NCBI GenBank assembly: GCA_030603695.1
Contig: JAUVXF010000006.1
Span: forward strand, 62,001 to 126,000
Length of the DNA stretch: 64,000 bases
Origin: Natronohydrobacter sp.
GTDB lineage: Bacteria; Pseudomonadota; Alphaproteobacteria; Rhodobacterales; Rhodobacteraceae
Reading direction: 5' to 3'
Below, piece after piece: positions 15,946-34,358 of this stretch. Position numbers and translations under genes: made by a program. The notes beneath the pieces are model-generated. The model was not told the DNA's origin. It was given only the letters and a program-made list of their open reading frames with translations, and did no database searches. Positions within the stretch are counted from its first letter, which is position 1. The number at the start of each line of letters is the position of its first letter.

Positions 15946-16134
15946 ACAGCCGCGCATTGCTGGGCCGCGGTGCGGCGATCCGCCAGCGGGGCTAAGCGGT
16001 TTATGCTGGCCAAGTCCGAACGAAATTCAGGCTAAGCGCAGGGTGCAGCCAAATCGCTGTGCCGGGGGGCGGCCCAGCGATGCGCGGCGGCCTTCGGCCT
16101 TGATTCCGCGCTTGGCGCGCACTTTCCAACGTCC
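15946..16134 (+). repeat. Dispersed 189-bp intergenic repeat, copy A
   Basis: One of three related copies (others at 19191 and 34169). Shared blocks include GGGCCGCGGTGCGGCGATCC near the left end, GCAGCCAAATCGC in the middle, GCCGGGGGGCGGCCC, and CTTGATTCCGCGCTTGG near the right end. The right half can fold: GCGCGG (16082-16087) with CCGCGC (16106-16111) enclosing GGCC-TTC-GGCC. It fills the 322-bp gap between convergent glyS and accA. Nothing else is visible there. Confidence 0.85.
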
Positions 16135-16178
16135 TTCAAGTGCCTCACATCCGCCATCTTGCGCCAAGTGGCAAAGGC

Positions 16179-17138
16179 TCAGGCCGCCAGCCCCTTCGAT
16201 CCCATGGCAAGAAACTTTTGCCGCCGATCCTGCCGCAGCGCATCGGGGGATTTGCCGTCCATCTCTTTCAGCATCGCGCCCAGCGCTGCGCCCACGGCCT
16301 TGATCATCGCGGCGCGGTCGCGCTGCGCTCCGCCCAGCGGCTCTGGGATGATGCGGTCAATGACATCCAGCTTCTTGAGGTCTTGCGCCGTCAAGCGCAG
16401 CGCCTCTGCGGCCTCGCGCATTTTCTCGGCATCCTTCCACAGGATAGAGGCGCAGCCTTCGGGCGAGATGACGGAATAGACCGAATGTTCCAACATCGCG
16501 ATGCGGTTGGCCGTGGCAAAGGCCACCGCCCCGCCCGATCCGCCCTCGCCGATGATGACAGAAACCAGCGGCACGCCCAGTGACAGGCATTTTTGCGTGC
16601 TGCGCGCAATCGCCTCTGCCTGCCCGCGTTCTTCCGCGCCCTTGCCGGGATAGGCGCCCGGCGTATCCACCAGCGTAATCACAGGCAGGCGGAACCGGTC
16701 TGCCATGTCCATCAGCCGGATGGCCTTGCGATAGCCCTCTGGCCGCGCCATGCCGAAATTGCGCCGCAGGCGTGATTGCGTATCATGCCCCTTTTCCTGA
16801 CCGATCACCACAACAGGCCGATCTTTCAGCCGCCCCAGCCCGCCAATCACGGCCTCATCCTCGGCAAAGCCGCGATCGCCTGCAAGGGGGGTGAATTCGT
16901 CAAACAGCGCTTCGATATAATCGCGGCAATGGGGCCTGTCGGGATGGCGGGCCACCTGGCATTTGCGCCACGGCGTCAGGCCGCGATACAGATCAACCAG
17001 CAGTTTCTGGGCTTTCGCATCCAGCGCGGCCGCCTCTTTCTCAACATCCATATCCGGGTTGGCCGCAGCCATGGCGCGCAATTCTGCCGCCTTGCCCTCT
17101 ATCTCGGCCAGGGGTTTTTCGAATTCCAGATAATTCAT
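16179..17138 (-). CDS. accA: Acetyl-CoA carboxylase carboxyltransferase subunit alpha
   Basis: Transfers the carboxyl group from biotin carboxyl carrier protein to acetyl-CoA, together with AccD, giving malonyl-CoA for fatty-acid synthesis. The 319 residues match the family exactly. Visible motifs are the N-terminal [56 protein letters not shown], and the oxyanion-hole glycines in [12 protein letters not shown]. The frame is open up to 17489 but homology begins at the ATG at 17138. It is divergent from imuB and convergent with glyS. Confidence 0.98.
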
Positions 17139-17252
17139 GCCGCACTCCAACGCTTTTACTGCGGTCTTATGCGGCAGGGCGGGGGAATTTGCAATCTTGA
17201 AGGCACCCGGCGAGAGGCAGACTCGACTCTGGGCCAAACGCGCCCTAAATTG

Positions 17253-17267
17253 GAACATAAAGTGAAC
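17253..17267 (+). promoter_or_regulatory. LexA (SOS) box upstream of imuB
   Basis: GAACATAAAGTGAAC is GAAC-N7-GAAC, the same as GTTC-N7-GTTC on the other strand, which is the known alphaproteobacterial LexA operator. It ends 13 bp before the imuB ATG, so bound LexA would cover the promoter or the translation start region. Confidence 0.8.
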
Positions 17268-17280
17268 ATATGGCCCCCGC

Positions 17281-18750
17281 ATGCCCCGCCGTATCCTTAT
17301 CCTCTGGTTGCCCCGTTTCCGTTCTGATCTGGCGCTGCGCCGCAGGCCAGTGGCAGGGGCGTTTGCGCTTGTGGAACGCGCGCGCGGGGCAGACAGGCTG
17401 GCCTGCCTGAACCCGCCCGCCATGGCGCGCGGGCTGCGCGCGGGCATGGGGCTGGCGGATGCGCGCGCGCTTTGCCCCGATCTGCTCACCCGCCCGGCCG
17501 ATCCGCTGGAAGAGGGGCGCGCGCTGGAGGCGCTGCGCCGCTGGGCCTTGCGCTATTGCCCTTGGGTGGCAACCGAGGGCACGGATGGGCTGGCGCTGGA
17601 TATTACAGGGGCCGCGCATCTGCTGGGGGGAGAGGGGGCGCTTCTGGCCGATCTGTGCGCAAGGCTGGCGCGCATGGGCTTTGAGGCCCGCGCCGCCATT
17701 GCCCCCACACGCGGCACGGCTTGGGCCATGGCGCATTACGGGCGCGGCGGGATCGTGCCAGAGGGGCGCGCGGAACAGGCGTTGATGCCCCTGCCACTGG
17801 CCGCGCTGCGGCTGGAACCGGAGGTGCTGGACGGGCTGGCCCGTCTGGGCCTGCGCCTTGTGCGCGATCTGCACAAATTGCCCCGCGCCAGCCTTGCGCG
17901 GCGATTTGGCGCAGCGCCCCTCTTGCGGCTGGATCAGGCGCTTGGCCATGTGGCAGACCCTATCACCCCCGCGCCAGAGGCCCCGCCCCTTGCTGTGCGC
18001 CTGTCACTGCCCGAACCGATTGGGCTGATGGGCGATATCACCGCGGGGCTGGATCGGCTGCTGGCGCGGCTCTGCACTCATTTGCGCAACGCGAATAAGG
18101 GGGCGCGGCGGGTGCTTTTGGAACTGGCGCGCGTGGATGGGCAGGCCATAAGGCTGGACATCGGGCTGGCGCGGCCCATGCGCGAACCTGCCGCCATTGC
18201 CCCCCTGTTCACCCGCGCGCTGGACGGGCTGGATGCAGGCTTTGGCATAGACCGCATGCGCCTAAGCGCCACGGCCACAGAAACACTGGCCGCAGCCCAG
18301 ATCACCACCACCGGCGCACAGGCGCAAGACGATCTGGCCGATCTGCTGACGCGGCTGTGCAACCGCGTGGGGTTTGAGTCCGTCTGGCGCTATCTGCCCG
18401 CAGACAGCCATATCCCCGAAAAAGCCTATAGCATTGCCGCTGCCGCCTATAGCCAGCCCGCGCGCGATTGGCCCAGCACGCCGCCCCGCCCGCTGCTGAT
18501 CTTCCCGCCCGAAGCGATTGCAGGCCAAGGCCGCGCGCTGCCGCAGCGTTTCAAATGGCGGGGGCTGTGGTGGGGGGTGGTGGCGGCATCGGGGCCGGAA
18601 CGCATCAGCCCGCAATGGTGGCTGGATGATCCCGCATGGCGCACGGGGCTGCGCGATTACTGGCGCGTGCAAACCGACAGGGGCGCGCGGCTTTGGCTGT
18701 TTCATACGCCCCAGCGCGATGGCTGGTATGTGCAGGGCGAATTTGCCTAG
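17281..18750 (+). CDS. imuB: ImuB-like Y-family DNA polymerase homologue (SOS mutagenesis)
   Basis: A 489-residue Y-family polymerase homologue. The opening [17 protein letters not shown] and the block [20 protein letters not shown] match ImuB rather than active DinB. ImuB is a non-catalytic adaptor that recruits the error-prone polymerase DnaE2 with ImuA. An SOS box sits directly in front. The partners normally encoded next to it (imuA upstream, dnaE2 downstream) are absent: accA lies divergently upstream and a 690-bp gene-free interval follows. There is no good ribosome site before the ATG, so a leaderless or very short-leader transcript is possible. Confidence 0.85.
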
Positions 18751-18758
18751 CGCATGTC

Positions 18759-18785
18759 GCGCAAAACTGGGAACCGGTTTTGCGC
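18759..18785 (+). repeat. Palindrome after imuB
   Basis: GCGCAAAACTGG-GAA-CCGGTTTTGCGC forms a 12-bp stem (one mismatch or wobble) nine bases after the imuB stop. It resembles the AAACCGG...CCGGTTT intergenic palindromes common in alphaproteobacteria. There is no T run after it on either strand, so I do not call it an intrinsic terminator. Confidence 0.55.
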
Positions 18786-18927
18786 AAAAAGACACGCGAA
18801 CATTTAAGGTTAGCGTGGGTCGCGTGACTGCGAATGCTAGGCGGGGCGGGCTGTGGCACAAAGGGTTTTGAAAAGGCGCTGACAGCGCGCGCCCTTCGCA
18901 CCTTGGGGGCAATTCTTGGCCCCGTTT

Positions 18928-18961
18928 GCCCCCCAAGCGCCCCGCCTGAAACTTGGGGGGC
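18928..18961. repeat. Inverted repeat in gene-free interval after imuB
   Basis: GCCCCCCAAG pairs perfectly with CTTGGGGGGC across a 14-nt loop. A second, longer-range inverted repeat (CTGTATCGC at 18986, GCGATACAG at 19071) follows. The interval 18751-19190 otherwise shows no convincing gene. Confidence 0.5.
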
Positions 18962-19190
18962 GCTTTGATCCTGTGCAGCGGTGCCCTGTATCGCAACCAG
19001 CCCCCCATCTTGCCACGTTGCAACGCGGCCCAAGCTGGCCGCCCGCGCAAGGACACGGGGCAAGCGCCGCGCGATACAGCCCCCGCTTCGCGGGATGCTC
19101 CCAAAAAGGAAAAGGCCCCGCCTCGTGTTCACCACCTGCGCGGCGGTTCGGCCATGAGCGGCAGCTATGCAGGGGGGTGGTGACGTTCGC

Positions 19191-19379
19191 AAAGCCGCGC
19201 AGCGTCGGGCCGCGGTGCGGCGATCCAGCCTTTAGGCTATGTCACTTTATGCTGGCCAAATCCGCGCGAAATATCGGCTATGCGCAGGTTACAGCCAAAT
19301 CGCCGTGCCGGGGGGCGGCCCGGCGCTGCGCGGCGGCCTGCGGCCTTGATTCCGCGCTTGGTGTTCAGCTCTAATGTCC
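19191..19379 (+). repeat. Dispersed 189-bp intergenic repeat, copy B
   Basis: Same family and orientation as the copies at 15946 and 34169. It starts AAAGCCGCGCAGCGTCGGGC, shared almost verbatim with copy C, and ends ...CTAATGTCC, the same right boundary as the others. The right-end hairpin is GGCC-TGC-GGCC inside GCGCGG/CCGCGC. It sits between convergent imuB and the ABC exporter gene. Confidence 0.85.
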
Positions 19380-19439
19380 CCTTCCGCTCATACCAGCCCC
19401 TCGGTATCGCCTGTAAAATGCAGAAGGCTACGCCCCCCC

Positions 19440-21242
19440 TCACTGCCCGCCCGTTGCTTCCGTCGCCTGCTCGCCAAATTGCAGCGCATGCAGCCGGGCA
19501 TAGGCCCCGCCCTGTGCCAGCAACTCTGCATGCGTGCCCTGTTCCACCACGCGCCCGCGATCCATCACGACAATCTGATCAGCATTGCGCACGGTCGACA
19601 GCCTGTGCGCAATGACAAGCGTTGTGCGCCCCTTGGCCAGACGCGCCAGCGCCTCTTGCACAAACGCTTCGGATTTCGCATCCAGCGCGCTTGTGGCCTC
19701 GTCCAGCAGCAAGATGGGGGCATCGCGCAACAAGGCGCGCGCAATGGCCACGCGCTGGCGCTGCCCCCCGGACAGGCTGGAACCGCGCGGGCCTGCAAGG
19801 CTATCCACCCCATTGGGCAAAAGCGGCAAAAAATTATCCACATAGGCATCGCGCAGCGCCGCCTGCAAGGCGGCATCGGGCACATCCTCTGCGCCCATCA
19901 GGATATTGTCGCGCAAGCTTTCATCAAACAGCGCCGTATCCTGACTGACCACCGCAAACAGCTTGCGCAGCGCGGCCAGATCCATGCCCCGCACATCCTG
20001 CCCGCCAATCAGCACCGCGCCATCTGTCACATCTGCAAGCCGGGTTAGCAGGGTAAAAACCGTGGTCTTGCCCGCGCCTGACGGGCCAACAATGGCCGTT
20101 GTCTTGCCCGCAGGGGCGGTAAAGGACAAATCCTGCAACACAGGTTCGCTGTCATAGGCGAAAGAGACATTGCGCAATTCCACGCTTGCCTTCTCGCGCG
20201 CAGGAATTGGCAGATGCGGCGGTGGCGGGTTTGTCACGCGCGGCTGGATCTGCAACAGCGCATGTGTGCGTTCAAGAGAGGCCAGAATCGCCTGCCATTC
20301 TGCCAGCAGCGCCGAAAAACGGCGCATGGGATCAAACAACAGGCCCAGCGATGTGAAGAACGACATGAACTGCCCGACACTGCGCGTGCCTTCAATGATC
20401 TGCAAGCCGCCATAGACCAGCACCAGCGCAAAGCCGATTGCCGCGCCAAAATCCATAACCGTGGGAACGGCCGCTTGCCCGATTGCCGCGCGCGTTGCCT
20501 TGCGGACATAGTTTTGCATGATCGCACGAAAGCGCCCGACCTCGCGCGCCTCGGAACCTGTCAGTTGCAAGGTGGCTATGCCATGAAATGCCTCGTCCAG
20601 CCGGTTGGAACTGTCAGCCGCCGCAATGCGCGCATCTGTGCTGCGCCGCCGGATAAGGCGCTGGATGGCAATCAACGGCAGCCCAAGCAGCGGCAGGCCC
20701 AGAAGGGCAATCAGCGTCCATTGCCAATCTGTCCACAACGCCACGCCAAACAGCACGATCACCGCCGCACCATCGCGGCCCAGCCCGGTAATCAGGCCAT
20801 TGAACACACCCCCCAAGGCGCCACTGTCGCCGCGCACACGTTCAATCAGAACCCCCGGCGCATGATGCTTGAAAAACCCCTGATCCAGCCGCGCAACATG
20901 GGTCAGCAACATCGCCTGCAATTCGGCGGTGGCCTGATGCGCCTGCCATGCCATCAGTGATTTATGCACCAGCCGCGCCAGCCCGCGCCCGAAAAACACG
21001 GCCGCCATGGCCAGCGCCACCAGCACAACCCGGCCCCTGTCGCCTGCGATGAACACATCATCAAACATGGGCTGCACAAGATAGCTGAATGCGCCAAGGG
21101 TTGCGGCCTCCAGCACCATGAACAGCACAGCCAGCCCGATGATGGGCAAACGATGGCGGATAAAGCTGTCCCACAGCCAGCGCGCCACCACTCTGTCGTG
21201 ACGCGCCTGGGCTTTGCGGGGGGCAAGGGGGGTATCTGACAC
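19440..21242 (-). CDS. ABC exporter, fused membrane and ATPase domains (MsbA-like)
   Basis: A 600-residue half-transporter that works as a homodimer in the inner membrane. Residues ~25-330 form the ABC_membrane type 1 domain with about six helices. The ATPase domain has Walker A GPSGAGKTT, signature SLSGGQRQR, Walker B ILLLDEATSALD and the switch His in VIAHRLSTV. It resembles MsbA and related lipid or lipid A flippases, but many exporters share this architecture, so cargo is unproven. It lies 72 bp downstream of the curli genes on the same strand, which could mean co-transcription or coincidence. Confidence 0.88.
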   Translation of the reverse strand: MSDTPLAPRKAQARHDRVVARWLWDSFIRHRLPIIGLAVLFMVLEAATLGAFSYLVQPMFDDVFIAGDRGRVVLVALAMAAVFFGRGLARLVHKSLMAWQAHQATAELQAMLLTHVARLDQGFFKHHAPGVLIERVRGDSGALGGVFNGLITGLGRDGAAVIVLFGVALWTDWQWTLIALLGLPLLGLPLIAIQRLIRRRSTDARIAAADSSNRLDEAFHGIATLQLTGSEAREVGRFRAIMQNYVRKATRAAIGQAAVPTVMDFGAAIGFALVLVYGGLQIIEGTRSVGQFMSFFTSLGLLFDPMRRFSALLAEWQAILASLERTHALLQIQPRVTNPPPPHLPIPAREKASVELRNVSFAYDSEPVLQDLSFTAPAGKTTAIVGPSGAGKTTVFTLLTRLADVTDGAVLIGGQDVRGMDLAALRKLFAVVSQDTALFDESLRDNILMGAEDVPDAALQAALRDAYVDNFLPLLPNGVDSLAGPRGSSLSGGQRQRVAIARALLRDAPILLLDEATSALDAKSEAFVQEALARLAKGRTTLVIAHRLSTVRNADQIVVMDRGRVVEQGTHAELLAQGGAYARLHALQFGEQATEATGGQ

Positions 21243-21314
21243 GGCCTGCCTGTCACGTTGCTGCGGTTGGCTAGGGCATATCGCCTTTGCAACAGGCTGG
21301 AAAGCCCAGATTGC

Positions 21315-21725
21315 TTAGGGCGCAAATTGCAGCAAAATCCCGGCCTGCCCGCCTGTCTGGGCAATATCGGCCTGCGCACCGCGCCCGAATTGCAAGATAA
21401 CCTGCGCATTGGGCGCGCCGGATTGCGACAGGGTGGCGCTATGATCGGCCCCTCTTTGGCGGATGATCGCGCGCTGGCCGCTGCCCTGTTGCAGCAGCGC
21501 CGCCGCATGGCCCTGCCCGCGCTGGCCGATATCGGCGCCCACGCGCAGATCGCGGCGCAGCGCATAAAGCGTGATCGCGGTAGAGAGAAGCTGCGCCTCT
21601 GTCGTGCTGCGCGGGGTCAGCGAGAGCGAGATCGCCCCGGCAGCCGCAGTCGAGCCAAGCGTGGCGGCAATCAGCGCCGCGCCCAACAGGCGCGGCAGGC
21701 GGGGTTTGGCTGGGGTGATCTTCAT
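21315..21725 (-). CDS. Curlin-repeat protein, CsgB-like
   Basis: A 136-residue secreted protein with a signal sequence (LLGAALIAATLGSTAAAGA) and then four to five degenerate curlin repeats of about 22 residues, with the Gln-x-Gly pattern: GADIGQRGQG, ALLQQGSGQ, IIRQRGADHS, TLSQSGAPNA, DIAQTGGQA. The repeats carry more Arg than CsgA, typical of the nucleator CsgB, which seeds CsgA polymerisation at the outer membrane. It is third in the csgA-csgH-csgB order. The assignment to CsgB rather than another curlin variant is inference from position and composition. Confidence 0.75.
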   Translation of the reverse strand: MKITPAKPRLPRLLGAALIAATLGSTAAAGAISLSLTPRSTTEAQLLSTAITLYALRRDLRVGADIGQRGQGHAAALLQQGSGQRAIIRQRGADHSATLSQSGAPNAQVILQFGRGAQADIAQTGGQAGILLQFAP

Positions 21726-21769
21726 GGCAAAACTCCGTTTCTGGGCAAAAGGGTTACAGCGCGACAGCG

Positions 21770-22189
21770 TTACAGGGCGGCTTGGCGGCAGGTGCGGGTT
21801 TTGCCATTGGCCGTAACGCTAAGTTCGGCCTGAAATTCGCGGCTGCGGCCCGAAAACTTGGCCTCTCCCAGAATCGCGGCCTCGCCTGCTTTCAGATCAA
21901 ATTCTCCGCCCTGCCGGATCGTGGCCCGACCGCCAGCGCTGCGCTGCTCCACCTCCAGCTGATAGGTGCCCCGGCTGGGCTGGTGCGCCTGTGCATGGGC
22001 AGAGATTGTAACCTGACGGTTATGTTCCGTCAGGCGCAATTCGCAGACAAACGGATCACGCGCGGGTTTGGGCGTGGCGCTGGCCAGAACAGCCGTCGCG
22101 GGTTGGGTAGCATGCGATGTGGCCAGACTGGCGGCAAACGCGGCCCCGGTTACAACCAAGGCGGCTGCGGTATAGGATAAGACAGACAT
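21770..22189 (-). CDS. csgH: Curli amyloid inhibitor CsgH-like
   Basis: A 139-residue exported protein with an N-terminal signal or anchor (SYTAAALVVTGAAFAASLA) and a compact C-terminal domain of roughly 95 residues starting at CELRLTEHNRQVTIS and ending KTRTCRQAAL. The two Cys at the ends and the predicted beta-sandwich match the CsgH/CsgC family, which blocks premature CsgA aggregation in the periplasm; CsgH is the alphaproteobacterial form. Its location between csgA and a csgB-like gene supports the call. Ribosome site ACAGGAGAGTGCC precedes the ATG. Confidence 0.8.
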   Translation of the reverse strand: MSVLSYTAAALVVTGAAFAASLATSHATQPATAVLASATPKPARDPFVCELRLTEHNRQVTISAHAQAHQPSRGTYQLEVEQRSAGGRATIRQGGEFDLKAGEAAILGEAKFSGRSREFQAELSVTANGKTRTCRQAAL

Positions 22190-22220
22190 GGCACTCTCCT
22201 GTGCGATAGGGTGTTTTTAG

Positions 22221-22256
22221 CCCTTGCGCCGGAAACAGATGGCCCCGGCGCAAGGG
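22221..22256 (-). promoter_or_regulatory. Perfect 12-bp hairpin between csgA and csgH
   Basis: CCCTTGCGCCGG (22221-22232) pairs perfectly with CCGGCGCAAGGG (22245-22256) across a 12-nt loop, just after the csgA stop. No U run follows on the minus strand. It likely protects the csgA transcript end or attenuates read-through into csgH and csgB, so that the major fibre subunit is made in excess (inference). Confidence 0.6.
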
Positions 22257-22267
22257 GTGCGGGGCGC

Positions 22268-22711
22268 TTAATCCTGAATGATCAGCACCACATTGCCATT
22301 GCCGTGCTGGGTTGCTTTGGCGGTATTGCCAGAGCCTGTCTGGATCACGCCCACAGCGTTGCGATGGCCACCTTGGGTAACGGTTGCATCATTGCGACAG
22401 CCCATCTGGGAAATGCCCACGATATTGCGCGCGCCGCCCTGTTCGGTATCGGCCACATTGTTGCAGCCGGATTGGCCGACAACCACACGGTTGCGCGCGC
22501 CATCCTGACGGTTCAGCGCCAGATTGCCCCGGCCATTCTGGGTGATGCTGATACGCTGGCGGTGGCCTTGCTGGGTGGTGGCGATACTGTTCTCGCGCCC
22601 CCATTGATCCACCGTTACACGGTTGGAACCTGCATCGGCTGGCAGGGCAGTGAGGGCCAGAAGGGCGGATAGCGCCGCGCCGGCAAGAGTATGGGGCAAG
22701 GCAAAACGCAT
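22268..22711 (-). CDS. csgA: Major curlin subunit CsgA-like
   Basis: A 147-residue secreted amyloid subunit. Residues 1-27 are a signal peptide ending in LPADA. Then come about six 22-residue curlin repeats with Q-x-G-x-x-N (VDQWGREN, ITQNGRGN, VGQSGCNN, ISQMGCRN, VIQTGSGN, final QD). These stack into a beta-solenoid fibre on the cell surface. Unusually, repeats 3 and 4 carry Cys at the same position (Cys83 and Cys105, 22 residues apart). The start at 22711 follows GAGGAGATTATCC; the frame is open to 22909. CsgEFG export genes are not in the window. Confidence 0.85.
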   Translation of the reverse strand: MRFALPHTLAGAALSALLALTALPADAGSNRVTVDQWGRENSIATTQQGHRQRISITQNGRGNLALNRQDGARNRVVVGQSGCNNVADTEQGGARNIVGISQMGCRNDATVTQGGHRNAVGVIQTGSGNTAKATQHGNGNVVLIIQD

Positions 22712-22887
22712 GGATAATCTCCTCATCTTTGTGTCGGTTCCGGGCTTTGGGCCTTGCGCCTTTGGCAGCGCGGCCAGCCCTTGCGGATCATCCGCCCCCC
22801 CACGCTGCGGCAGATGCGCCATGACAGGCAATATCGCCCCGATGTCAGCCAATAGCCGCGCGCATGTTATCCGATAACGGCCCCGCC

Positions 22888-25447: not shown

Positions 25448-27735
25448 GTTTTGTGTTCCCGTGTTGAGATGACCAGCCGCAAGGCGATCAGCGCTGAAAG
25501 CGCGGCAATGCCAAGCATGAGGATCGTGTAGAAAATGGGCCGCGCAGAAACGATATTGCCCAAGGCGGCGCGGAAATTATGCCGCGTCCAGGGTTCCAGC
25601 AATTGCGGCGTGCGATCGGGCGCAAACCAGTTTGACCAAGCGCCATCATGTCCCAAAATGGACACCTGCCCGCGCGGCCCGGCCCCCAGCGCCCGCGCGC
25701 GGGCAATGGCATGCGCGATACTGCCCATATCGCTATCGGGGCCGCGCAGCATCCAGATGTCATCTGGCCGCTCTGGGTCTAGCTGGAACAAAACCGCCTG
25801 CCCGCGCTGCTGCGCCAGCCACAGGTTCAGATCATCCCCGCTGGCAGGAAAAACACGGCCCATCAGGCGCAAGGCATGGTCTGACAGCGTGGCCCAGCCT
25901 GCGCCCAGCGCAACCGACAGGCCGCGCGCCTCTGTCACCGGGGCGCGGAACGGGTCTAGCTCTGCTGGCGCGGCTTCGGCCAGAAGCGCAGGCGCGGCCT
26001 GTGGGGCCAGAAGCGCGTTTTCCAAAAGCACGCGGTTGGCGCGGTATCGGCCAGTCGGGATTGAACCCATATCCTCTATCGCGATCAGATGCAGCGCAGC
26101 CGGGCGCGGTGCCGCATGGCTGCGCGCAAGCGCTGCGGCCAACATGGCCTCGTCTATCGGGGCAAAGGCGCGGCTGCTCATATCGTTGCGCTGCAACGAT
26201 CCGGGCGCAAGGGCGGCAAAGGCATGGCCCATATCGGCAATCTTCATTGGCGGGCTGTAGGGCACATGCAGGGCCGAACTGCCGCCAATCTGCAAAAACG
26301 GCATCTCTTGCGCCGCGCAGGGCAGCGCGGGGGGATCACCGGGGACAAACATCTCGAAGCTCAGAACATTCAGCCCAGATTGCAGCGCGCGGGCCTCGAA
26401 ATCTATGGGGAAGCGCGAAATGGGCTGCCCCCCTGCGCCGCGCAGTGGCAGCATCCGAACCGAGGTGTCATTCACCTTTACCAACAGAACAGACCCTTCG
26501 GGCAAGTCGGGCGCATAGGCATAATCCAGATAAATCCGCGCTTTGGCGGCAGTCAGGATCAGCCAATCCTCTGGCAGGCGGAAGGTGTGGTCACGCTGGG
26601 CATAGCGCTGGGCAAAGCGCTCTGTCTCTGCGCCGAAATCCGAAAAGGCAACCAGTTGTTGCGGCGCGATCAGAGGGGCGCGCTGGCCTTGGGCCTGGGG
26701 TTGCAGGGAGCCAAGAGCGGCAAACATATCCTCTGGCCGCGTGCCTTGGGCGATTTCCAGCACCATGACCAAGGCCCCATCCCCACCGCGCACAAACCGC
26801 GCGCGGCTTTGGGCGGCGGGCAACAGGGTTATGCGCGCAGCCGCCGGCACCTCTGGCGCGAGTGTCCAGAAATCGTGAAAGGCAAAGGCCAGCGGCGCGC
26901 CGCCCAGAACCTGATTAAGCCGCGCAACAAGAAAGCCGCGCCAGATATCATCTTCGGCGCCCAAACCCTCCAGCCCGCGAATTTCAATCGCGCCTAGCCC
27001 CGCAGCCTGCGCGGCCAAGGCGATTAGAAAATCCTCTGCATCGGGCTGGTCTGGCGCATCTGGCGGGGCCAGAATCAGCCCGCTCTGGGCCAGATCAATA
27101 TCCGTCCACAGATCGAAACTGGCCTCTGGCCCGCAGAAAATGCGATGATGCTGGCGAAATTCGATCTGCACATGGTTGCGCCCGGCCTGCAACAGCCCCG
27201 GCGCAATGGCCATGCGATCTGCCCCAAAAGCCGCGATATGGGTCAGGTTGCGCGTGCCAATCTCTTGCCCATTCACCCAAACCCGCAGGCCAGAGCGTTC
27301 GGGCAGATTGTTGATGCCCGACAGGGTGACAAGCTGCAATTGTGCGTCGCGGCTATTGGGCTGGGCATAAAGATCAAACTCCAGCACGGCGCGTTCGCCT
27401 GTAATGCGCGTAATGCCTGCCTGAACACGATAGGACAAATCCACCAGCCGCAACGGCGATATGCGCGGGGCGCGCTGCCCATCTTGCGTGCCGGGCGCGG
27501 CCAATTGTGCTTCGGCCACGCGGCGGGCGGGATCTATGCGCGCATCCAGCCCGATATCCAGCCCGCTATCGCGTGGCATGTCGGGCAAGAGCAGGCCGTC
27601 ATTCTCTGGCAGCACAATCAGACCACCATCACCAGTTTGCGCAAGCACAGGGCCAAAACCCGCCGAAAGACAGGCCGCAAGCGCAAATATGCGCAGGGCG
27701 CATGGGGGTTTGGGCTGTGTGGGGACGCGAATCAT
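25444..27735 (-). CDS. bcsB: Cellulose synthase regulatory subunit BcsB
   Basis: A 763-residue periplasmic partner of BcsA that guides the glucan out of the membrane pore. It has an N-terminal signal (ALRIFALAACLSAGFGPVLAQ), long beta-rich carbohydrate-binding and flavodoxin-like domains (VDLSYRVQAGITRITGERAV, FDLWTDIDLAQSG), and a single C-terminal anchor helix (FYTILMLGIAALSALIALRL) that packs on BcsA. Length fits the family. Overlaps at both ends (ATGA) with bcsA and bcsZ. Confidence 0.95.
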   Translation of the reverse strand: MIRVPTQPKPPCALRIFALAACLSAGFGPVLAQTGDGGLIVLPENDGLLLPDMPRDSGLDIGLDARIDPARRVAEAQLAAPGTQDGQRAPRISPLRLVDLSYRVQAGITRITGERAVLEFDLYAQPNSRDAQLQLVTLSGINNLPERSGLRVWVNGQEIGTRNLTHIAAFGADRMAIAPGLLQAGRNHVQIEFRQHHRIFCGPEASFDLWTDIDLAQSGLILAPPDAPDQPDAEDFLIALAAQAAGLGAIEIRGLEGLGAEDDIWRGFLVARLNQVLGGAPLAFAFHDFWTLAPEVPAAARITLLPAAQSRARFVRGGDGALVMVLEIAQGTRPEDMFAALGSLQPQAQGQRAPLIAPQQLVAFSDFGAETERFAQRYAQRDHTFRLPEDWLILTAAKARIYLDYAYAPDLPEGSVLLVKVNDTSVRMLPLRGAGGQPISRFPIDFEARALQSGLNVLSFEMFVPGDPPALPCAAQEMPFLQIGGSSALHVPYSPPMKIADMGHAFAALAPGSLQRNDMSSRAFAPIDEAMLAAALARSHAAPRPAALHLIAIEDMGSIPTGRYRANRVLLENALLAPQAAPALLAEAAPAELDPFRAPVTEARGLSVALGAGWATLSDHALRLMGRVFPASGDDLNLWLAQQRGQAVLFQLDPERPDDIWMLRGPDSDMGSIAHAIARARALGAGPRGQVSILGHDGAWSNWFAPDRTPQLLEPWTRHNFRAALGNIVSARPIFYTILMLGIAALSALIALRLVISTREHKT

Positions 27736-30164
27736 CTTCTGCCCTCCATCCCGCGCGACAGCACAAGGGCGCGGCGTTGCGCTTCGGTCAGGGTGGCCAT
27801 CCCATCCAACCCGGCAATGCCAAAACCGATATCAAAACCGGGATTGGGGATTTCGGGGTCAAAGGCCTCTCCGAATGCCAGCAAATGCGCGGGCTGAGAC
27901 AATTCCATCTGGCCCAGACGCGCGCGCTCTGCCGCGGCACGGCGGCGCGCGGGTTCGGCCACAAGGGCGCGCAGCGTGTGATAGACAGAACTGACAGACA
28001 GCGCCGCCACATGGGCCATTCCGCGCAAAAGCGGCATGGGGGCGCTTTTGCCCGCGCGCACGCGCTCCCATGCGGCGCTGTCGCCAAAGATCAGATGGGC
28101 GATTGTTTCGCGCACATTCATGGGCTGGGCAGGATCAAAACGCAGGCCCACGATAATGCCGGAATTTACCCGCTCTACCCCGGCCACCTGCGCGCGAATG
28201 GCGTTTTCCAGATGCGGCGAGCGCGGAAATTCGGGGGTGAAATACAGCACATACCCCTTGGCGATGGAGAGAAGCTCTTTCACATCGGTATCCGGCCCCG
28301 CCACCAGCTTCAGCCGCGCGCCACTGGTAGAGGCATCAAGGATCGTGCCCGCCGCAAAGCTGAACTGCCCGCTGGAACCGATGGCAGCCACGGCAGGGGT
28401 GCTCATTTCCACGCGCGGCACGCCGCGGCGCTGCTGGCGCTCTGCGACAGCGCGCAGCGCGGCGGACACGATCACAAAGTTGAACACCGCCCAGCCGCCC
28501 ACAATGGACAAGATGGTGTGATCACCGGGAAACAGCACCCAGCGCACCGCCGCCGCCAGCACCGCCAGCCCCGCCAGAACCCATAGCGCCAGAAGCGGCT
28601 TGAAGATGGGAGAGATGAAATCTTCCTCCAGCACCTCGTCCTTGGCGGTGACGTTGAATTTCGCGCCGCGCGGGCGGAAGATGGTTCTCAGCACCACCCC
28701 CGCCAGATAGGGCGCTTGCGCGGTTTCATAGATTTCCGACATCAACGGCCAGCGCACCCGCGCATAAAGCGCATTCTGCACCATGAAACTGATCGCCATA
28801 TAGGCGCCCATATAGACCATCACCTCTTCAATCGTGGCCACAAAGATTTGCAGCCCGAAGAAGAGATACGCCAAGGGGGCCAGAATAAAGACCATCCGCA
28901 CCAGCGGGAATAACCAGAATGTCATGGAATTAAGGTAACAGAGACGCTGGCTCAGGCTCATACCCTTGCGGCGCAGGGGGTTTTTCAGCATCAGAAGCTG
29001 CATCATCCCCGCCGCCCAGCGCCCGCGCTGCTGGATGAAACTGACAAAGGTTTCGGGCTGAAGCCCCGCAATCATGGCGTGGTCAACATACATGCTTTTC
29101 CAGCCGCGCGAATGGATTTCCAGCGCGGTTTCAGCATCTTCCGTAATGGTTTCGCCTGCAAAACCGCCCACATCATCCAGCGCGGCCCGGCGCAAGACCG
29201 AAGCAGAACCGCAAAAGAACGCGCCGCCCCAGCGATCCAGCCCGCGATGGCCCAGATGGTAGAACATCTCATTTTCCGGCGGGCAATCGGGGCGAAAGCC
29301 GATATTGCGCTCTACCGGATCGGGGTTGAGGAAGAAATGCGGGGTCTGCACCAGAAAGAGTTTCGGGTCTTCCACGAAATAGCCCACGGTGCGGGCCAGA
29401 AAATCGCGCGCGGGCACGTGGTCTGCATCGAACACCACCACCAGATCACCGTTCAGCCGCTCCAGCGCGGCAGACATGTTGCCCGCTTTGGCATGTTCGT
29501 TGCGCGGGCGGGTGGAATAGACAACGCCCAATTCGGCGCAGAGGTCTTGCAACTCTGCCCGGCGCTGCCGCGCCTTGGCGGCAAGCACGGGATCATCACT
29601 GTTGCAGCGCTGATCTGTGCCGCCATCATCACACAGCACCACCGTGCGCTTGAGCGGCGGATAATGCATGTTCTTTGCCGCCGAAAGCGTGACGGCCAGC
29701 ATTTCTGTAGGTTCGTTGTAACTGGGAACCAGAATATCCACTGTGGGCAAATCGGCTGCCGCTACTTTGGGCGGCAAGGTGCGGTTCACAGGATCGGCCG
29801 TAATGAAGGAACTGATGAAAAAGACGAAAATCGCATAGGTTTCCACCGCGAAAAGGGCGATGGCGATGGTATAGGAAACGGGGTTTTCCGGCGCAGGCAG
29901 GGTTTCCGATACCCGCCAGAACCAATAGCGCATCACCACCGCGCTGGCGATGGCCAGCAGCAGGAACCGCGCGAGAATATGCTTGTTGGCAAAGGGCTTT
30001 AGCGCTGCAACCGCCACGACAGCAAACAGCCCCAGCCCGCCTTGCACCGCCACAGAAGTGGGAATGCTGGCCAAAAGCGCCAGCGGCACGACCAAACCCA
30101 CCCAGAGCAGCGCCAGCCCTGTTTCATGCGGCCTAAGCTTGCGTGTCGCGATCAATAAGCTCAT
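27732..30164 (-). CDS. bcsA: Cellulose synthase catalytic subunit, c-di-GMP responsive
   Basis: A GT2 processive glycosyltransferase of 810 residues that polymerises UDP-glucose into beta-1,4-glucan and threads it through its own membrane channel. The full D,D,D,Q(Q/R)xRW set is present: VPSYNEPTEM, CDDGGTD, FDADHVP, TEDAETALEIHSRGW and QQRGRWAAGMMQ. The C-terminal PilZ domain keeps RGVPR (RxxxR) and DASTSG (D/NxSxxG), so it should bind c-di-GMP. About eight helices flank the domain. The ATG at 30164 follows AAGAGGGCCG; the frame is open to 30263. It lies 13 bp after bcsN. Confidence 0.97.
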   Translation of the reverse strand: MSLLIATRKLRPHETGLALLWVGLVVPLALLASIPTSVAVQGGLGLFAVVAVAALKPFANKHILARFLLLAIASAVVMRYWFWRVSETLPAPENPVSYTIAIALFAVETYAIFVFFISSFITADPVNRTLPPKVAAADLPTVDILVPSYNEPTEMLAVTLSAAKNMHYPPLKRTVVLCDDGGTDQRCNSDDPVLAAKARQRRAELQDLCAELGVVYSTRPRNEHAKAGNMSAALERLNGDLVVVFDADHVPARDFLARTVGYFVEDPKLFLVQTPHFFLNPDPVERNIGFRPDCPPENEMFYHLGHRGLDRWGGAFFCGSASVLRRAALDDVGGFAGETITEDAETALEIHSRGWKSMYVDHAMIAGLQPETFVSFIQQRGRWAAGMMQLLMLKNPLRRKGMSLSQRLCYLNSMTFWLFPLVRMVFILAPLAYLFFGLQIFVATIEEVMVYMGAYMAISFMVQNALYARVRWPLMSEIYETAQAPYLAGVVLRTIFRPRGAKFNVTAKDEVLEEDFISPIFKPLLALWVLAGLAVLAAAVRWVLFPGDHTILSIVGGWAVFNFVIVSAALRAVAERQQRRGVPRVEMSTPAVAAIGSSGQFSFAAGTILDASTSGARLKLVAGPDTDVKELLSIAKGYVLYFTPEFPRSPHLENAIRAQVAGVERVNSGIIVGLRFDPAQPMNVRETIAHLIFGDSAAWERVRAGKSAPMPLLRGMAHVAALSVSSVYHTLRALVAEPARRRAAAERARLGQMELSQPAHLLAFGEAFDPEIPNPGFDIGFGIAGLDGMATLTEAQRRALVLSRGMEGRR

Positions 30165-30177
30165 GAAAACGGCCCTC

Positions 30178-30870
30178 TTAAAACAAATTCGATCGCGGAA
30201 TTCCCAGACCAAAAGCGGCCGGCCCCAAAGGGGCCAAAGCCTGATCAATACCGCCCTGCACACAATTGCGCATCATCATGTCCAGATTGCTCACCCCGCG
30301 CGGCAGTGCGCGCGCGCCTGTCTGCGTCCGGCGCAGGGCCAGAACGCAGGTCATATCGCCGCCGGGGCGCAGAACAGCATAGGTAGAATCGCCAAACGTG
30401 TCAGAGCGCGCGGCAAGCGCGCTGTCAGTAATGCTGCCAAAGGGCGCGGGCGCACCGCCAAATTGCGCCAGCGCCTCTGTCAGAACAAGGGGGTTCTGGC
30501 CGCCTGCGCGGCGCGTCTGGGCGCGCAGCAAGATCACGTTTTCACCGGCAAGCGCGGTCAGGTTGGGCAGGGTCACGCGCTGTTCTATGGCCGCGCCCAA
30601 ATCGCGCTCCATCACCACAAGCGCATTGGGCGCATTCACAAAAGCACGGCTGGCGGGGATAATGCGGTATTCTGTCAGGGCCTCTGCCAATTCGGTGGGG
30701 CTGGAATTTTGCGACGGCAAGCCCATCTGGCACGCGGCCAACACATAGAAAACCGCCAATAGGGCCATGCCCCGCTGTGCATGGCGCGCCACGATGTGCC
30801 AAAGCGCATTGCTTCGGCCATTGCTTCGGGATGCCACGGATGGCGCGCGATGGTCGAAAGACCAGCTCAT
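30178..30870 (-). CDS. bcsN: BcsN-like lipoprotein, first gene of the cellulose operon
   Basis: A predicted lipoprotein of the BcsN family, an accessory factor seen upstream of bcsA in alphaproteobacteria. The lipobox LAAC follows a hydrophobic stretch (ALLAVFYVLAAC), and the mature part has the block EYRIIPASRAFVNAPNALVVMERD. If translated from the ATG at 30870 (good ribosome site AGAGGCAAG) the signal has a long Arg-rich n-region. ATG 30768 just before the hydrophobic core is the alternative. The function is unknown beyond its link to cellulose. Confidence 0.75.
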   Translation of the reverse strand: MSWSFDHRAPSVASRSNGRSNALWHIVARHAQRGMALLAVFYVLAACQMGLPSQNSSPTELAEALTEYRIIPASRAFVNAPNALVVMERDLGAAIEQRVTLPNLTALAGENVILLRAQTRRAGGQNPLVLTEALAQFGGAPAPFGSITDSALAARSDTFGDSTYAVLRPGGDMTCVLALRRTQTGARALPRGVSNLDMMMRNCVQGGIDQALAPLGPAAFGLGIPRSNLF

Positions 30871-31120
30871 ATCTTGCCTCTGCCTCTATGCGCCGCCCTG
30901 TCTTTATGCAGGGTCAGCGCGGATTTGGCCCTCTTGCGGGGCCTCTTTGGAGCAGAGTTTACGGAAAATTAGGGCGTTTTGCAATCTTTATAGATAAACA
31001 AGTGCGCGGAAGATATATTTCGCCGCCGCACCGCCCCTTTTGCCCCCATGCCATGGGCGCGGGAGCAGAAGAAACACGAAATCTGGGGGATGGGGCCAAA
31101 GCAGGGGCCAGATACAGACA
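30871..31120 (-). promoter_or_regulatory. Leader/promoter region of the cellulose operon
   Basis: This stretch upstream of bcsN has no gene. The part at about 30955-31020 is conspicuously AT-rich for this genome (for example TTTATCTATAAAGATTGCAAAAC on the minus strand in part) and is the most likely promoter of the bcsN-A-B-Z operon. No specific regulator site recognised. Confidence 0.4.
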
Positions 31121-31135
31121 GACTGGCCCAGAATT

Positions 31136-31165
31136 GCGCCCTGTTGCGCCTGCGCAACAGGGCGG
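31136..31165 (-). terminator. Inverted repeat after the hpf-like gene
   Basis: CGCCCTGTTGCGC (31137-31149) and GCGCAACAGGGCG (31152-31164) are perfect inverse complements. They sit nine bases past the stop at 31174 (minus strand). The T tail is poor, so it may be a Rho-independent terminator of low quality or an mRNA end stabiliser. Confidence 0.5.
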
Positions 31166-31173
31166 CCAAAGCC

Positions 31174-31491
31174 TTAGCGCCGGGCGCGCTGTTTTCCCAA
31201 TTCTGTGTCCAGCACATTGCGCATTTTATCCACCGCGCCGGTGACTGCGGATTGAATCGTGGCGGCCGTATTGGTCGCGCTCAGGGGTTGGCGGTTTTCC
31301 AGTCGCACTTCCACCACGCAGCGCTTGTCATCGGGGCCGCTTTTCTCGGCATTGGTATCTTGCAAATGCACCTCAATGCGGGTGATCGTACCGGAAACCG
31401 CGCCCAGCTTGGACTCAAGCACCCCTTCCACAAAGCGCACGACATCCTCGCGCCCGGCAATATTATTGTCGGTATTGATCTGAATTTGCAT
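31174..31491 (-). CDS. HPF/RaiA-family ribosome-associated protein, short form
   Basis: A 105-residue protein matching the N-terminal S30AE/HPF domain: QIQINTDNN, then VEGVLESKLGAVSGTITRIEVHL, and a conserved VEVRLENRQPLSAT strand. HPF-type proteins bind the 30S decoding centre in stationary phase and hibernate ribosomes. Most alphaproteobacterial HPFs are long with a C-terminal dimerisation domain; this one has only the first domain. The start at 31491 is supported by AAAGGACATGCGAT. Upstream lie thyA-folA on the same strand, about 80 bp away. Confidence 0.75.
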   Translation of the reverse strand: MQIQINTDNNIAGREDVVRFVEGVLESKLGAVSGTITRIEVHLQDTNAEKSGPDDKRCVVEVRLENRQPLSATNTAATIQSAVTGAVDKMRNVLDTELGKQRARR

Positions 31492-31574
31492 ATCGCATGT
31501 CCTTTCATCTGTAACACCCAAGACTTAGGCACGCACAAGCGCTTATACAATTACCCCTTCGCGCGTGTTGGCCA

Positions 31575-32066
31575 TCACAAGGGCGACAGGCGCAAATACT
31601 CCATCAATTCGCAAGCCGGGCCATCGGCGCGCAGGGGCACACAGGCATTCAGCCGCCAGTCCCGCGCGTCAAATTCGGGAAAGAATGTATCGGCATCGTG
31701 CAGATCAAGCGCGACTTCGGTTATCAGCAACCGATCTGCCAAGGGCAGAAAGGCCGCATATATCCCCGCGCCGCCAATGGCATAAATGCGCAAGTATCCC
31801 GCCGCATGCGCAGCCGGAATGGCCTGATCCAGCGGCAGGAACAAAACGCCGTCCTCTGCCGGGGCGGGCTGCGAGGTGACAACAATATTCAGCCGCCGGG
31901 GCAAAGGGCGCTTTGGCAGGCTTTCCCATGTGCGCCGCCCCATGATAACCGCGCCGCCCAGTGTTTCGCGCTGAAAGGCGGCCAGATCTTCGGGGGCATG
32001 CCACGGGATTGTATTATCCCGGCCAATCGCCCCACCCCGCGCGCGCGCCACGATCACCGAAATCAT
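31575..32066 (-). CDS. folA: Dihydrofolate reductase
   Basis: Reduces dihydrofolate to tetrahydrofolate with NADPH, regenerating the cofactor spent by ThyA. The 163 residues start ISVIVARARGGAIGRDNTIPWH, followed by PEDLAAFQRETLGG, MGRRTWESLPKRPLPRRLNIV and the IYAIGGAGIYAAFL nucleotide-binding block. The start at 32066 is four bases after the thyA stop, so the two are co-translated. The long upstream extension of this frame overlaps thyA and is not real. Confidence 0.97.
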   Translation of the reverse strand: MISVIVARARGGAIGRDNTIPWHAPEDLAAFQRETLGGAVIMGRRTWESLPKRPLPRRLNIVVTSQPAPAEDGVLFLPLDQAIPAAHAAGYLRIYAIGGAGIYAAFLPLADRLLITEVALDLHDADTFFPEFDARDWRLNACVPLRADGPACELMEYLRLSPL

Positions 32067-32070
32067 GGCG

Positions 32071-32850
32071 CTATACCGCCACCGGGGCTTTGATCGCGGG
32101 GTGCGGATCATAGCCTTCGATCTGGAAATCCTCGAAGCGGAAATCGAAAATACTGTCAGGCTGGCGCAAAATCTGCATGCGCGGCAGGGGCCGGGTTTCG
32201 CGCGAAAGTTGGGTGTGCACCTGTTCCATATGGTTGGAATAGATATGCGCATCACCCATTGTGTGCACAAATTCCCCCGGCTCCAGCCCTGTTACCTTGG
32301 CCAGCATCAGTTGCAGCAGCGCATAAGAGGCAATGTTGAACGGCACCCCCAGAAACATATCTGCCGACCGCTGATAAAGCTGCACATGCAGCTTGCCGCC
32401 CAGAACCCGGACTTGCCACAGCGTATGGCAGGGCGGCAGCGCCATATTGGGCACATCGGGGGGGTTCCAAGCTGATACAATCATACGGCGGCTATCGGGG
32501 GTTTCGCGGATCTGGCGCAAGAGTTCGGAAATCTGATCCACCCCGCCAAAATCGCGCCACTGGCGGCCATAGACGGGGCCAAGATCACCCGCTGCATCGG
32601 CCCATTCATCCCAGATGGTGACGCCGTTTTCCTGCAAATAGCGAATGTTTGTGTCCCCCGACAGGAACCACAGCAATTCATGGATGATGGATTTCAGATG
32701 CACCCGCTTTGTGGTGACAAGGGGAAAGCCCTCTGCCAGATCATAGCGCATTTGCAGCCCGAAGACAGACAAAGTGCCCGTGCCTGTGCGATCATCAGAC
32801 GGAACGCCATGTTCCAGAATATACCGCAATCCATCCAGATACTGTTTCAT
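32071..32850 (-). CDS. thyA: Thymidylate synthase
   Basis: Methylates dUMP to dTMP using methylene-tetrahydrofolate. The 259 residues carry the active-site block [11 protein letters not shown] with the nucleophilic Cys, [33 protein letters not shown] and [13 protein letters not shown]. Slightly shorter than E. coli ThyA (264), which is normal. It is the first gene of the thyA-folA pair and divergent from gloA. Confidence 0.97.
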
Positions 32851-32983
32851 GTCGCGCCCGGCCTACCATATGCTGTAGGCGCAGCTTACGCCGGATAGAT
32901 GTGATTCTGAAACCCCCATTGCACTGCCCACCTTGGGCGCTATGATCTGCCCCAAGTGACGCACCAAAGGAAGGAAAACGGCA

Positions 32984-33406
32984 ATGCGCTATTTGCACAC
33001 GATGGTGAGGGTAAAGGATCTGGATGCCTCTATCGCGTTTTACAAGCTTCTGGGGCTGGAAGAAACGCGCCGCCATGAGAGCGAGGCAGGCCGCTTCACG
33101 CTGGTCTTTCTCGCCCCGCCCGGCCAGCCCGAATGCCCGGTAGAGCTGACCTATAACTGGGACGGGGATGAGGGCCTGCCCTCTGACAGCCGCCATTTTG
33201 GCCATCTTGCCTATGCGGTGGACGATATTTACGCAACCTGCGCCAAATTGCAGGCCGCGGGCGTCACCATCAACCGCCCGCCGCGCGATGGGCATATGGC
33301 GTTTGTCCGTTCGCCCGACAATGTGTCCATCGAATTGCTGCAAGCGGGCGAACGCCTGCCCCCGCAAGAGCCTTGGGCCAGCATGGGAAATACAGGGCAT
33401 TGGTAA
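32984..33406 (+). CDS. gloA: Lactoylglutathione lyase (glyoxalase I)
   Basis: Converts the methylglyoxal-glutathione hemithioacetal to S-lactoylglutathione. The 140-residue protein has the two-module glyoxalase fold: YLHTMVRVKDLDASIAFYKLLGL with metal-ligand His, VELTYNW with Glu, HFGHLAYAVDDI with the second His, and SIELLQ with the last Glu. A strong ribosome site (AAGGAAGGAAAACGGCA) fixes the start. Followed closely by a rhomboid gene. Confidence 0.95.
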   Translation: MRYLHTMVRVKDLDASIAFYKLLGLEETRRHESEAGRFTLVFLAPPGQPECPVELTYNWDGDEGLPSDSRHFGHLAYAVDDIYATCAKLQAAGVTINRPPRDGHMAFVRSPDNVSIELLQAGERLPPQEPWASMGNTGHW

Positions 33407-33457
33407 GCCGCGCAAAGCCACTTGCATTGGCGCGGCGGCAATGTCAAAGCCGCGCCT

Positions 33458-34108
33458 ATGGGGCCTGAACATATCTCTTTGCCAACGCGCGCCAATGCGC
33501 CTGCCGTGATCTGGCTGGTTGGCCTGACATGCCTGCCCGAAGTGGTGCTGACATTGCTGCAAGCGGGGCTTCTGGATGGTGACGCCTTGCGCCGCTGGAC
33601 AGTGGTTTATGGCGCGTTCTGGAATGGCCTGCTGTCAGATTGGCAGCCGCTTTACCCGCTGCAACCTACCGCCATGTTCGTAACCTATGCGTTTTTGCAT
33701 GGCGGTTTTCTGCACCTGATCGGCAATATGGTGGTGGCGCTGGCCTTGGGCGGGATCGCAGTGGCGCGGGTGGGGCAGCAGGGGTTTTTGCTGCTCTATG
33801 CGCTCTCGGCCATTGGCGGGGGCGCGGCTTTTGCGCTGTTATCCAGCAGCGAGGCGCCGATGGTCGGGGCATCCGGCGCGGTATTTGGGCTGATCGGGGC
33901 GTGGCAATATTGGGAATGGCAATTGCGCCGCCACCTTGGCAGCCCCTTGGGGCCTGTCTGGCGGCGGCTGGTGGGCTTGGCGCTGCTGAATGTGGTGCTA
34001 TGGCTGTTGCTGTCGGGCCTGTTGGCATGGGAAGCGCATCTGGGCGGGTTTGTTGTGGGTGTGATTTTTGCCGCGCTGGTGACACCCAACCTGCGCTACC
34101 GCGTTTAA
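33458..34108 (+). CDS. Rhomboid-family intramembrane serine protease
   Basis: A ~216-residue polytopic membrane protein with the rhomboid core: FLHGGFLHLIGNMVVAL with the HxxxN region, VGASGAVFGLIGA holding the nucleophilic Ser, and AHLGGFVVG with the catalytic His in the last helix. It cleaves membrane-protein substrates within the bilayer; the substrate is unknown. The ATG at 33458 is my choice; a TTG at 33422 is in frame. It is 50 bp past gloA. Confidence 0.9.
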   Translation: MGPEHISLPTRANAPAVIWLVGLTCLPEVVLTLLQAGLLDGDALRRWTVVYGAFWNGLLSDWQPLYPLQPTAMFVTYAFLHGGFLHLIGNMVVALALGGIAVARVGQQGFLLLYALSAIGGGAAFALLSSSEAPMVGASGAVFGLIGAWQYWEWQLRRHLGSPLGPVWRRLVGLALLNVVLWLLLSGLLAWEAHLGGFVVGVIFAALVTPNLRYRV

Positions 34109-34168
34109 GGCGCTGGCGCGTCACGATAGGACAGGGCAGGCAGCTATCGGGGGGAAGGGGACATAGCC

Positions 34169-34358
34169 AAAGCCGCGCAGCGTCGGGCCGCGGTGCGGCG
34201 ATCCTCCCGAAGAGCTAGGCGCTTTATGGTGGCAACGTCCGAACGAAACTGAAGCTATGCACCAGCGGCAGCCAAATCGCCGTGCCGGGGGGGCGGCCCG
34301 GCGATGCGCGGCGGGCTAAAGCCCTTGATTCCGCGCTTGGCGCGCTGCTCTACCGTCC
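34169..34358 (+). repeat. Dispersed 190-bp intergenic repeat, copy C
   Basis: Third copy of the family at 15946 and 19191, same orientation. Left end AAAGCCGCGCAGCGTCGGGC is almost identical to copy B; right end is ...CTACCGTCC. The inner hairpin is GGGCT-AA-AGCCC here rather than GGCC/GGCC, so the fold is retained with different bases. It lies between convergent rhomboid and tpiA genes. Confidence 0.85.

Follow-up and report, generated by a model that had tools for sequence, protein, structure and literature searches.

A repeat of about 165 bp with a conserved fold, which recurs at the 3' ends of genes in Natronohydrobacter sp., is probably a miniature mobile element of the Rhodobacteraceae that resembles REPINs, the hairpin-forming doublets of repetitive extragenic palindromic (REP) sequences; we put the probability of this reading at roughly 0.6. 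The repeat was noticed as three copies (A, B and C) in a stretch of 64,000 nucleotides, referred to as the window, which spans positions 62,001 to 126,000 of contig JAUVXF010000006.1 (assembly GCA_030603695.1; C4:62001-126000 in our contig numbering) in a genome of 2,947,918 bases and 40 contigs, labelled G000 here. All three copies lie in one orientation where a first-pass annotation, made from the letters of the window, had placed them, and the genome holds far more. Two of the interpretations offered there, a MITE-like element (miniature inverted-repeat transposable element) and a structured RNA, are both supported and describe one thing, namely a miniature element with a conserved fold. 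The long hairpin of the repeat is conserved and strongly backed by compensatory changes, the copies are situated at gene 3' ends, mainly though not exclusively between convergent genes, and they cluster by genome, not by position.

Conserved fold of the repeat and its distribution

Copies A, B and C have a mean column identity of 81% over 283 alignment columns, flanks included. An alignment of 32 own-genome copies delimits a conserved core of 164–168 bp, AAGCCGCGCA...GATTCCGCGC, with 88% mean column identity. The extent of about 189 bp proposed initially can be aligned among the copies, but its right boundary, GTCC, belongs to a less conserved flanking arm outside the core. The core consists of two palindromes in inverted order, and its consensus structure is one long hairpin with a bulge of 5–7 nt on the 3' side and an apical region of about 70 nt containing a conserved TTTAT, followed on the 3' side by a small hairpin and the tail TTGATTCCGCGC. 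This tail is nearly invariant among the own-genome copies, and its conservation in the family-wide set is partly due to the tail being the scan pattern.

Compensatory changes were counted in 52 copies from many genera, which also make up covariance model R2 and to which several genomes contribute more than one row and the own genome four. In the long fold, 97.0% of 1688 stem cells are paired, 16 of the 33 pairs change on both sides, and 147 double-change cells were found versus 35.6 after shuffling (reached in 0 of 500 shuffles) and at most 26 when the structure was slid. The two local hairpins covary as well (85.5% of 936 cells paired; 70 double-change cells versus 21.5 shuffled, 0 of 500; no more than 25 on sliding). 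The long fold is favored over the local hairpins by more than 5 kcal/mol in 60 of the 60 copies compared, with means of −42.0 and −27.7 kcal/mol, respectively. The stem cells of 60 copies contain 103 G-U (GU and UG) versus 14 A-C combinations (AC and CA), besides 86 other mispairs, and the large excess of G-U over A-C indicates that the plus strand is the folding strand. Consensus folding agrees with this assignment, yielding −108.8 kcal/mol for the plus strand versus −99.7 kcal/mol. Taken alone, a copy does not exceed shuffled sequence in stability (z −0.42 and −0.38), so that the evidence for the structure is comparative. Inspection by eye additionally revealed a further small hairpin of two recurrent types inside the 3' arm near the bulge (loci L121, L143, L157, L168; L108, L155, L163), and these smaller palindromes look as if they had been inserted into the element.

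Features of the repeat in the window, with the ends of the structural parts of copy C approximate:
15947..16111, + strand: core of copy A (32-copy alignment; covariance-model score 183.6 bits)
19192..19357, + strand: core of copy B (32-copy alignment; covariance-model score 174.6 bits)
34170..34336, + strand: core of copy C (32-copy alignment; covariance-model score 184.4 bits)
15857..16178, no strand: site A, the entire glyS/accA space between the stop codons (322 bp), taken up by the core and its outer arms
34109..34409, no strand: site C, the entire rhomboid/tpiA space between the stop codons (301 bp), taken up by the core and its outer arms
34172..34202, + strand: copy C, 5' arm of the long hairpin with a palindrome inside (mapped from the consensus structure)
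34276..34312, + strand: copy C, palindromic 3' arm of the long hairpin, bulge included (mapped from the consensus structure)
34313..34336, + strand: copy C, small 3' hairpin and conserved tail TTGATTCCGCGC; most pairs are invariant, so that covariation hardly tests them

Blastn with copy C gave at least 56 matches in the own genome, some of them partial (best 40 of 101 candidates scored). The covariance-model search that had been suggested for the repeat, performed with model R1 from the 32 own-genome copies, returned at least 72 matches of at least 80 bits in 2.95 Mb (counted by eye from the listing; best 150 of 4664 candidates), and many of the weaker matches reflect the palindrome as read on the opposite strand. 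Contigs C2, C21, C29 and C30 end in or near copies, probably because the assembly is interrupted by the repeat, so that the count of copies is probably a lower bound. At L043-L046 (contig C18), L047 (C29), L068 (C7), L052 (C2) and L083 (C31), cores form direct tandem arrays, in many cases at a distance of about 260 bp, with C18 and C29 being very copy-rich; the spacer of the arrays is conserved and differs from the arms of single copies.

Among 30 genomes, blastn found the repeat in 11 (own included), all of the same genus. A scan of named genomes for the 3'-tail pattern recovered at least 115 stretches, of which 80 were used. Where informative, their titles denote Rhodobacteraceae or Rhodobacterales (Roseovarius, Sulfitobacter, Salipiger, Leisingera, Pseudaestuariivita, Roseinatronobacter, Tritonibacter, Shimia and others), and one reads just 'Alphaproteobacteria bacterium'. 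With one genome per genus of the same family, model R2 was positive in 64 of 149 genomes, with 1 to at least 19 matches each, and no match was obtained in 85 genera under strict filters with the best 19 candidates scored per genome. A further genome, G009, carries 28 copies above 70 bits in the stretches examined. Consistent with the initial impression that the element is not a known one, the window and 18 loci gave tRNA only and no other Rfam family at the gathering score, and the three hits of copy A at E <= 10 are all far under the gathering scores. Phage records contained no match to the element. Plasmids did, with at least 95 matching records per query, 91 of them from Pseudosulfitobacter, and no annotation lies beneath the plasmid matches among those listed (20 and 30 rows).

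Position at gene ends, empty sites and turnover

Pfam confirmed the neighbors named in the first-pass annotation, which are glyS beta/accA at copy A, an ImuB-like IMS protein (17281-18750, + strand) and an ABC exporter (19440-21242, − strand) at copy B, and rhomboid/tpiA at copy C. About 440 bp between the ImuB-like gene and copy B (18751-19191) are free of called genes. The convergent arrangement of all three gene pairs reflects a strong enrichment and not exclusivity. In 23% of G000, with genes from a home-made caller, copies are present in 29 of 77 gaps between convergent genes, in 25 of 432 between same-direction genes and in 1 of 82 between divergent genes. The odds ratio is 11.3 (p = 3.6e-14), and the impression from the window that copies are absent from operons and divergent regions did not extend to the genome. 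Convergent gaps make up 29 of the 55 occupied ones, versus 11.7% expected from intergenic length. G009 shows the same pattern (17 of 27 convergent, 10 of 86 same-direction and 0 of 24 divergent gaps; odds ratio 17), as do the loci from the family (37 of 81, 19 of 310 and 5 of 73; odds ratio 12.6). The stretches were picked around copies, so that the gap background is local. The listing of flanking orientations thus gave convergent enrichment with odds ratios of 11–17 in three data sets; neither a restriction to three copies, nor a lack of enrichment, nor a match to an Rfam family was found. In same-direction gaps with one copy, the copy is nearer to the upstream stop than to the downstream start in 39 of 46 cases from the three data sets. 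The median convergent gap in G000 measures 331 bp with a single copy and 58 bp without. A single own copy (C7:156972) overlaps a called open reading frame by more than half.

Comparison of sites among relatives points to insertion of whole units. At site C, the 301 bp between rhomboid and tpiA correspond to −4 to 181 bp in 15 genus relatives that have both genes, the stops overlap in four of them, and the gap has no model match at E <= 1 in any of the 15. At site A, the own genome has 322 bp versus overlapping stops (TTAG) in G013 and G006. Likewise, the uraH/LysR gap measures 288 bp in Pseudosulfitobacter versus 24 bp in Sulfitobacter OXR-159 and 79 bp in Leisingera. We infer that these length differences are gains in the own lineage and not losses elsewhere. 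G179, which was counted as empty, has a weak match beside accA (L234:1460-1503; 8.6 bits, E 0.13) and, by eye, a tail-like stretch in its rhomboid/tpiA gap (L258, 181 bp), both of which may be truncated or decayed copies. Copies also lie beside accA in G011 and G017, and in G017 beside tpiA as well, with other neighbors than in the own genome.

The 70 own and 28 G009 copies compared are separated on a tree by one label change, and mean identity is 84.5% within the own genome, 86.6% within G009 and 74.3% between the two. Of four G009 sites whose neighbors are both adjacent in the own genome, three are filled in both genomes and one is empty in the own, in a sample that is biased to filled sites since the own DNA compared was chosen around copies; three further G009 sites share just one neighbor with a filled place in G000. 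Copies at the three shared places resemble each other no more than they resemble other copies. Clustering by genome in combination with the lack of positional likeness indicates that sites were refilled or that copies were homogenized within genomes.

The distribution of stem variants suggests at which stage the fold matters. Variants present in 1–3 copies comprise A-C and G-U in numbers of 13 and 10 in the own genome, 5 and 3 in G009, and 9 and 7 in the family set. Among variants shared by at least four copies, A-C is absent in all sets and G-U occurs 5, 1 and 7 times, respectively. Pooled, 27 A-C and 20 G-U rare variants compare with 0 A-C and 13 G-U common ones (p = 1.1e-4; p = 0.02 without the family set). 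Rare variants thus break stems about as freely as they keep them, and variants that have spread do not break them by A-C, which we read as selection on the spreading lineage. The structure seems to be selected for spreading, not at each resident site.

Relation to known repeat families and mobilizing enzymes

ERIC and RUP are bacterial MITEs that are small, intergenic, palindromic and non-coding and form structures when transcribed. The repeat shares these features with bacterial MITEs as described in the parts of the literature that we compared (PMC10969869, PMC2267715, PMC3116915, PMC3733652), of which PMC10969869 treats this group. It differs from ERIC, RUP and other MITEs by a covarying internal fold that is conserved across many genera, and terminal inverted repeats and target duplication were not established for it. 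REPINs are doublets of REPs that form hairpins and are thought to be moved by REP-associated tyrosine transposases (RAYTs; PMC3116915). According to the sections compared, REPINs and the repeat have in common two inverted palindromes that can fold either together into a single long hairpin or separately into two small hairpins ('hairpin' and 'clover') and many dispersed intergenic copies in lineage-specific sets (PMC3116915). In the repeat, the covariation of the local hairpins demonstrates the two inverted palindromic units, and covariation together with the stability in 60 of 60 copies demonstrates folding of the doublet into one long hairpin. No unpaired invariant tag of the GTAG/CGTC type was seen by eye beside the palindromes in the 52-row alignment, and the core, at 165 bp, is larger than a REPIN, with a bulge, the conserved apical TTTAT and a 3' tail. 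The CGTC-tagged REPs of alphaproteobacteria have stems of 8–9 bp, loops of 4–5 bp, an unpaired CGTC head and a 3-bp tail (PMC3733652). As far as this source was consulted, they resemble the repeat in host group, predominance of inverted dimers, lack of a dedicated transposase, G-T pairs in the stems and location mainly between convergent and same-direction genes (PMC3733652), whereas the repeat has longer stems and no CGTC head was seen. None of the names of Rhodobacterales that we looked for occurs in the main text of PMC3733652, additional files aside.

The REPIN partner enzyme does not explain the repeat family, because the own genome lacks a match to the RAYT/Y1 transposase family (PF01797) and no significant association was observed in the family, where Y1 occurs in just 15 of 149 genomes, 9 of which carry the element (p = 0.18), and in 3 of the 11 genomes with at least 19 element matches. 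The element works like a REPIN or a MITE, yet for neither class does it clearly show every defining feature that was tested.

A divergent, inverted subfamily (L276:1205-1357 and L270:2740-2892, both on the − strand) was observed on plasmids. When two strains of one species are compared at one plasmid site, one carries this subfamily where the other has the usual core, and a third strain has the two cores next to each other. Cassette exchange at this site (H46 versus SC33-90; inverted divergent core with 32.6 bits) was considered and set aside, because the third strain carries both cores side by side and loss of one of two adjacent copies would also explain the difference.

Alternative explanations and proposed mode of spreading

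A resident functional RNA, acting as bidirectional terminator or as stabilizer of mRNA 3' ends, kept by selection at each site and spread by gene conversion, would account for the strong 3'-end and convergent bias, for the stable plus-strand hairpin with its long-range stems of −42.0 kcal/mol on average, and for the three G009 sites that are filled in G000 too. We nevertheless regard it as doubtful. Rare stem variants have no G-U bias, the site C gap is without model match in 15 relatives, and matches are lacking in 85 of the 149 genera under the filters given above. In same-direction gaps, the element lies sense to the gene in 26 and antisense in 20 cases (p = 0.46; 13 and 6 in the own genome), which is no clear bias, and a scan of positions 15700-34600 of the window identified 22 terminator-like sites versus 21.0 expected by shuffling, including one on the 3' tail of copy B (19339-19356) but none at A or C. 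Since such sites are not above shuffles in the stretch scanned, the intrinsic-terminator interpretation was abandoned, and a dedicated bidirectional transcription end, as considered in the first-pass annotation, was likewise not shown.

That the repeat is instead a conventional MITE, i.e. a shortened DDE transposon recognized by terminal inverted repeats and directed to a TA or CTAG-type target, appears improbable. It would agree with sites A and C, where the units of about 300 bp extend precisely from one stop codon to the other, with shared motifs in the flanking arms, and with the stop codons beside single copies in G000, which are TAG in 43 of 67 cases versus 72 of 503 at element-free gene ends and part of CTAG in 21 of 67 versus 23 of 503. 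However, the TAG excess is absent from the convergent gaps of the family loci (15 of 70 versus 20 of 86) and merely hinted in G009 and in same-direction gaps of the family (p 0.07–0.28), and A or G precedes 16 of the 43 TAG stops. A rule of insertion into overlapping CTAG/YTAR stops with TA duplication is appealing at site C but was rejected in general because of these bases and the missing excess in family convergent gaps. The search for target-site duplications that had been recommended accordingly gave a divided answer, with site C compatible with a YTAA or TA duplication and site A not. Complementarity between the two arms of a copy does not exceed that between arms of different copies (mean rank 0.42; 4 of 51 above 95% of shuffled scores, arrays of C18 and C29 left out), so that an outer stem formed by co-varying arms is unsupported as well. 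Furthermore, IS630 and DDE_Tnp_1 have no match in the own genome, and the inner stems covary, which is unexpected if only the tips matter. REPs are known as targets of some relatives of the insertion sequence (IS) family IS110. It is very improbable that the repeat itself is a part or satellite of IS110 elements, for instance related to their guide RNA, even though the sole IS110 match of G000 (C39:27370-28302; L087/L088) lies a few hundred bases from a copy (C39:28538-28703) and an IS110-family element sits inside a copy on a Pseudosulfitobacter plasmid (L272:2501-3820, NZ_CP054603.1). The former is a neighbor and not an insertion into the tail of the C39 copy, as had been considered. In the latter, the copy served as target and is interrupted at CTT^GATTCCGCGC, its tail continuing beyond the IS, and at least 72 copies stand against one IS110 match. 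The repeat may be a target of IS110 elements.

Several observations weigh against the REPIN-like mobile element that we favor. No transposition was seen, no identical copies exist (the top identity within G000 is 96.4%), and no target duplication was established at the sites examined. The three G009 sites that are also occupied in G000 fit long residence as well as mobility. With respect to enzymes, G000 has 0 matches to Y1/RAYT and also 0 to reverse transcriptase (PF00078), which speaks against a retroelement of the retron or group II intron type, and none to IS630 (DDE_3) and DDE_Tnp_1, with IS3, IS21, IS66, IS256 and serine/tyrosine recombinases not searched. The rows of the covariation analysis are not independent, as several genomes supply more than one and four are own copies. 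Finally, the comparison of rare and common variants counts variant types and not independent events, is weaker on G000 and G009 alone, and 'other' mispairs are also present among common variants (5 in the own genome, 0 in G009 and 7 in the family set).

If the repeat is a REPIN-like mobile element, units of about 300 bp would be gained by insertion, and copying of a propagating 'master' form by an enzyme acting in trans would depend on the single-stranded fold, in RNA or in single-stranded DNA. This enzyme would now be absent from the own genome or be of another kind than those searched for. Inserted copies would decay nearly neutrally, with concerted evolution within a genome through turnover or gene conversion. 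Their survival at gene 3' ends could be due to a strong hairpin being harmful in promoters or inside operons and harmless between convergent stops. A bolder version is conceivable but rather unlikely, namely a family-wide class of mobile elements in which the folded RNA or single strand itself is copied. The enzyme that moves them would belong to none of the RAYT, reverse-transcriptase and common DDE families, and the elements would be directed, or reduced by filtering, to junctions of convergent genes and kept uniform in each genome by concerted turnover.

The Rhodobacteraceae are a large, mostly aquatic bacterial family. The repeat family is abundant in some of its genomes and appears to be undescribed; no description of it was found among the papers listed in searches of the openly licensed PMC literature, and among those listed for the tail sequence was one unrelated paper. 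The alignment is good enough for an RNA-family model. Moreover, the repeat provides a rare test case for distinguishing selection that acts on structure while the element spreads from selection at each site, and it raises the question of what moves or homogenizes about 70 copies in a genome without RAYT, reverse-transcriptase, IS630 or DDE_Tnp_1 matches. By their location beside house-keeping genes such as accA and tpiA, the copies may shape transcript ends.

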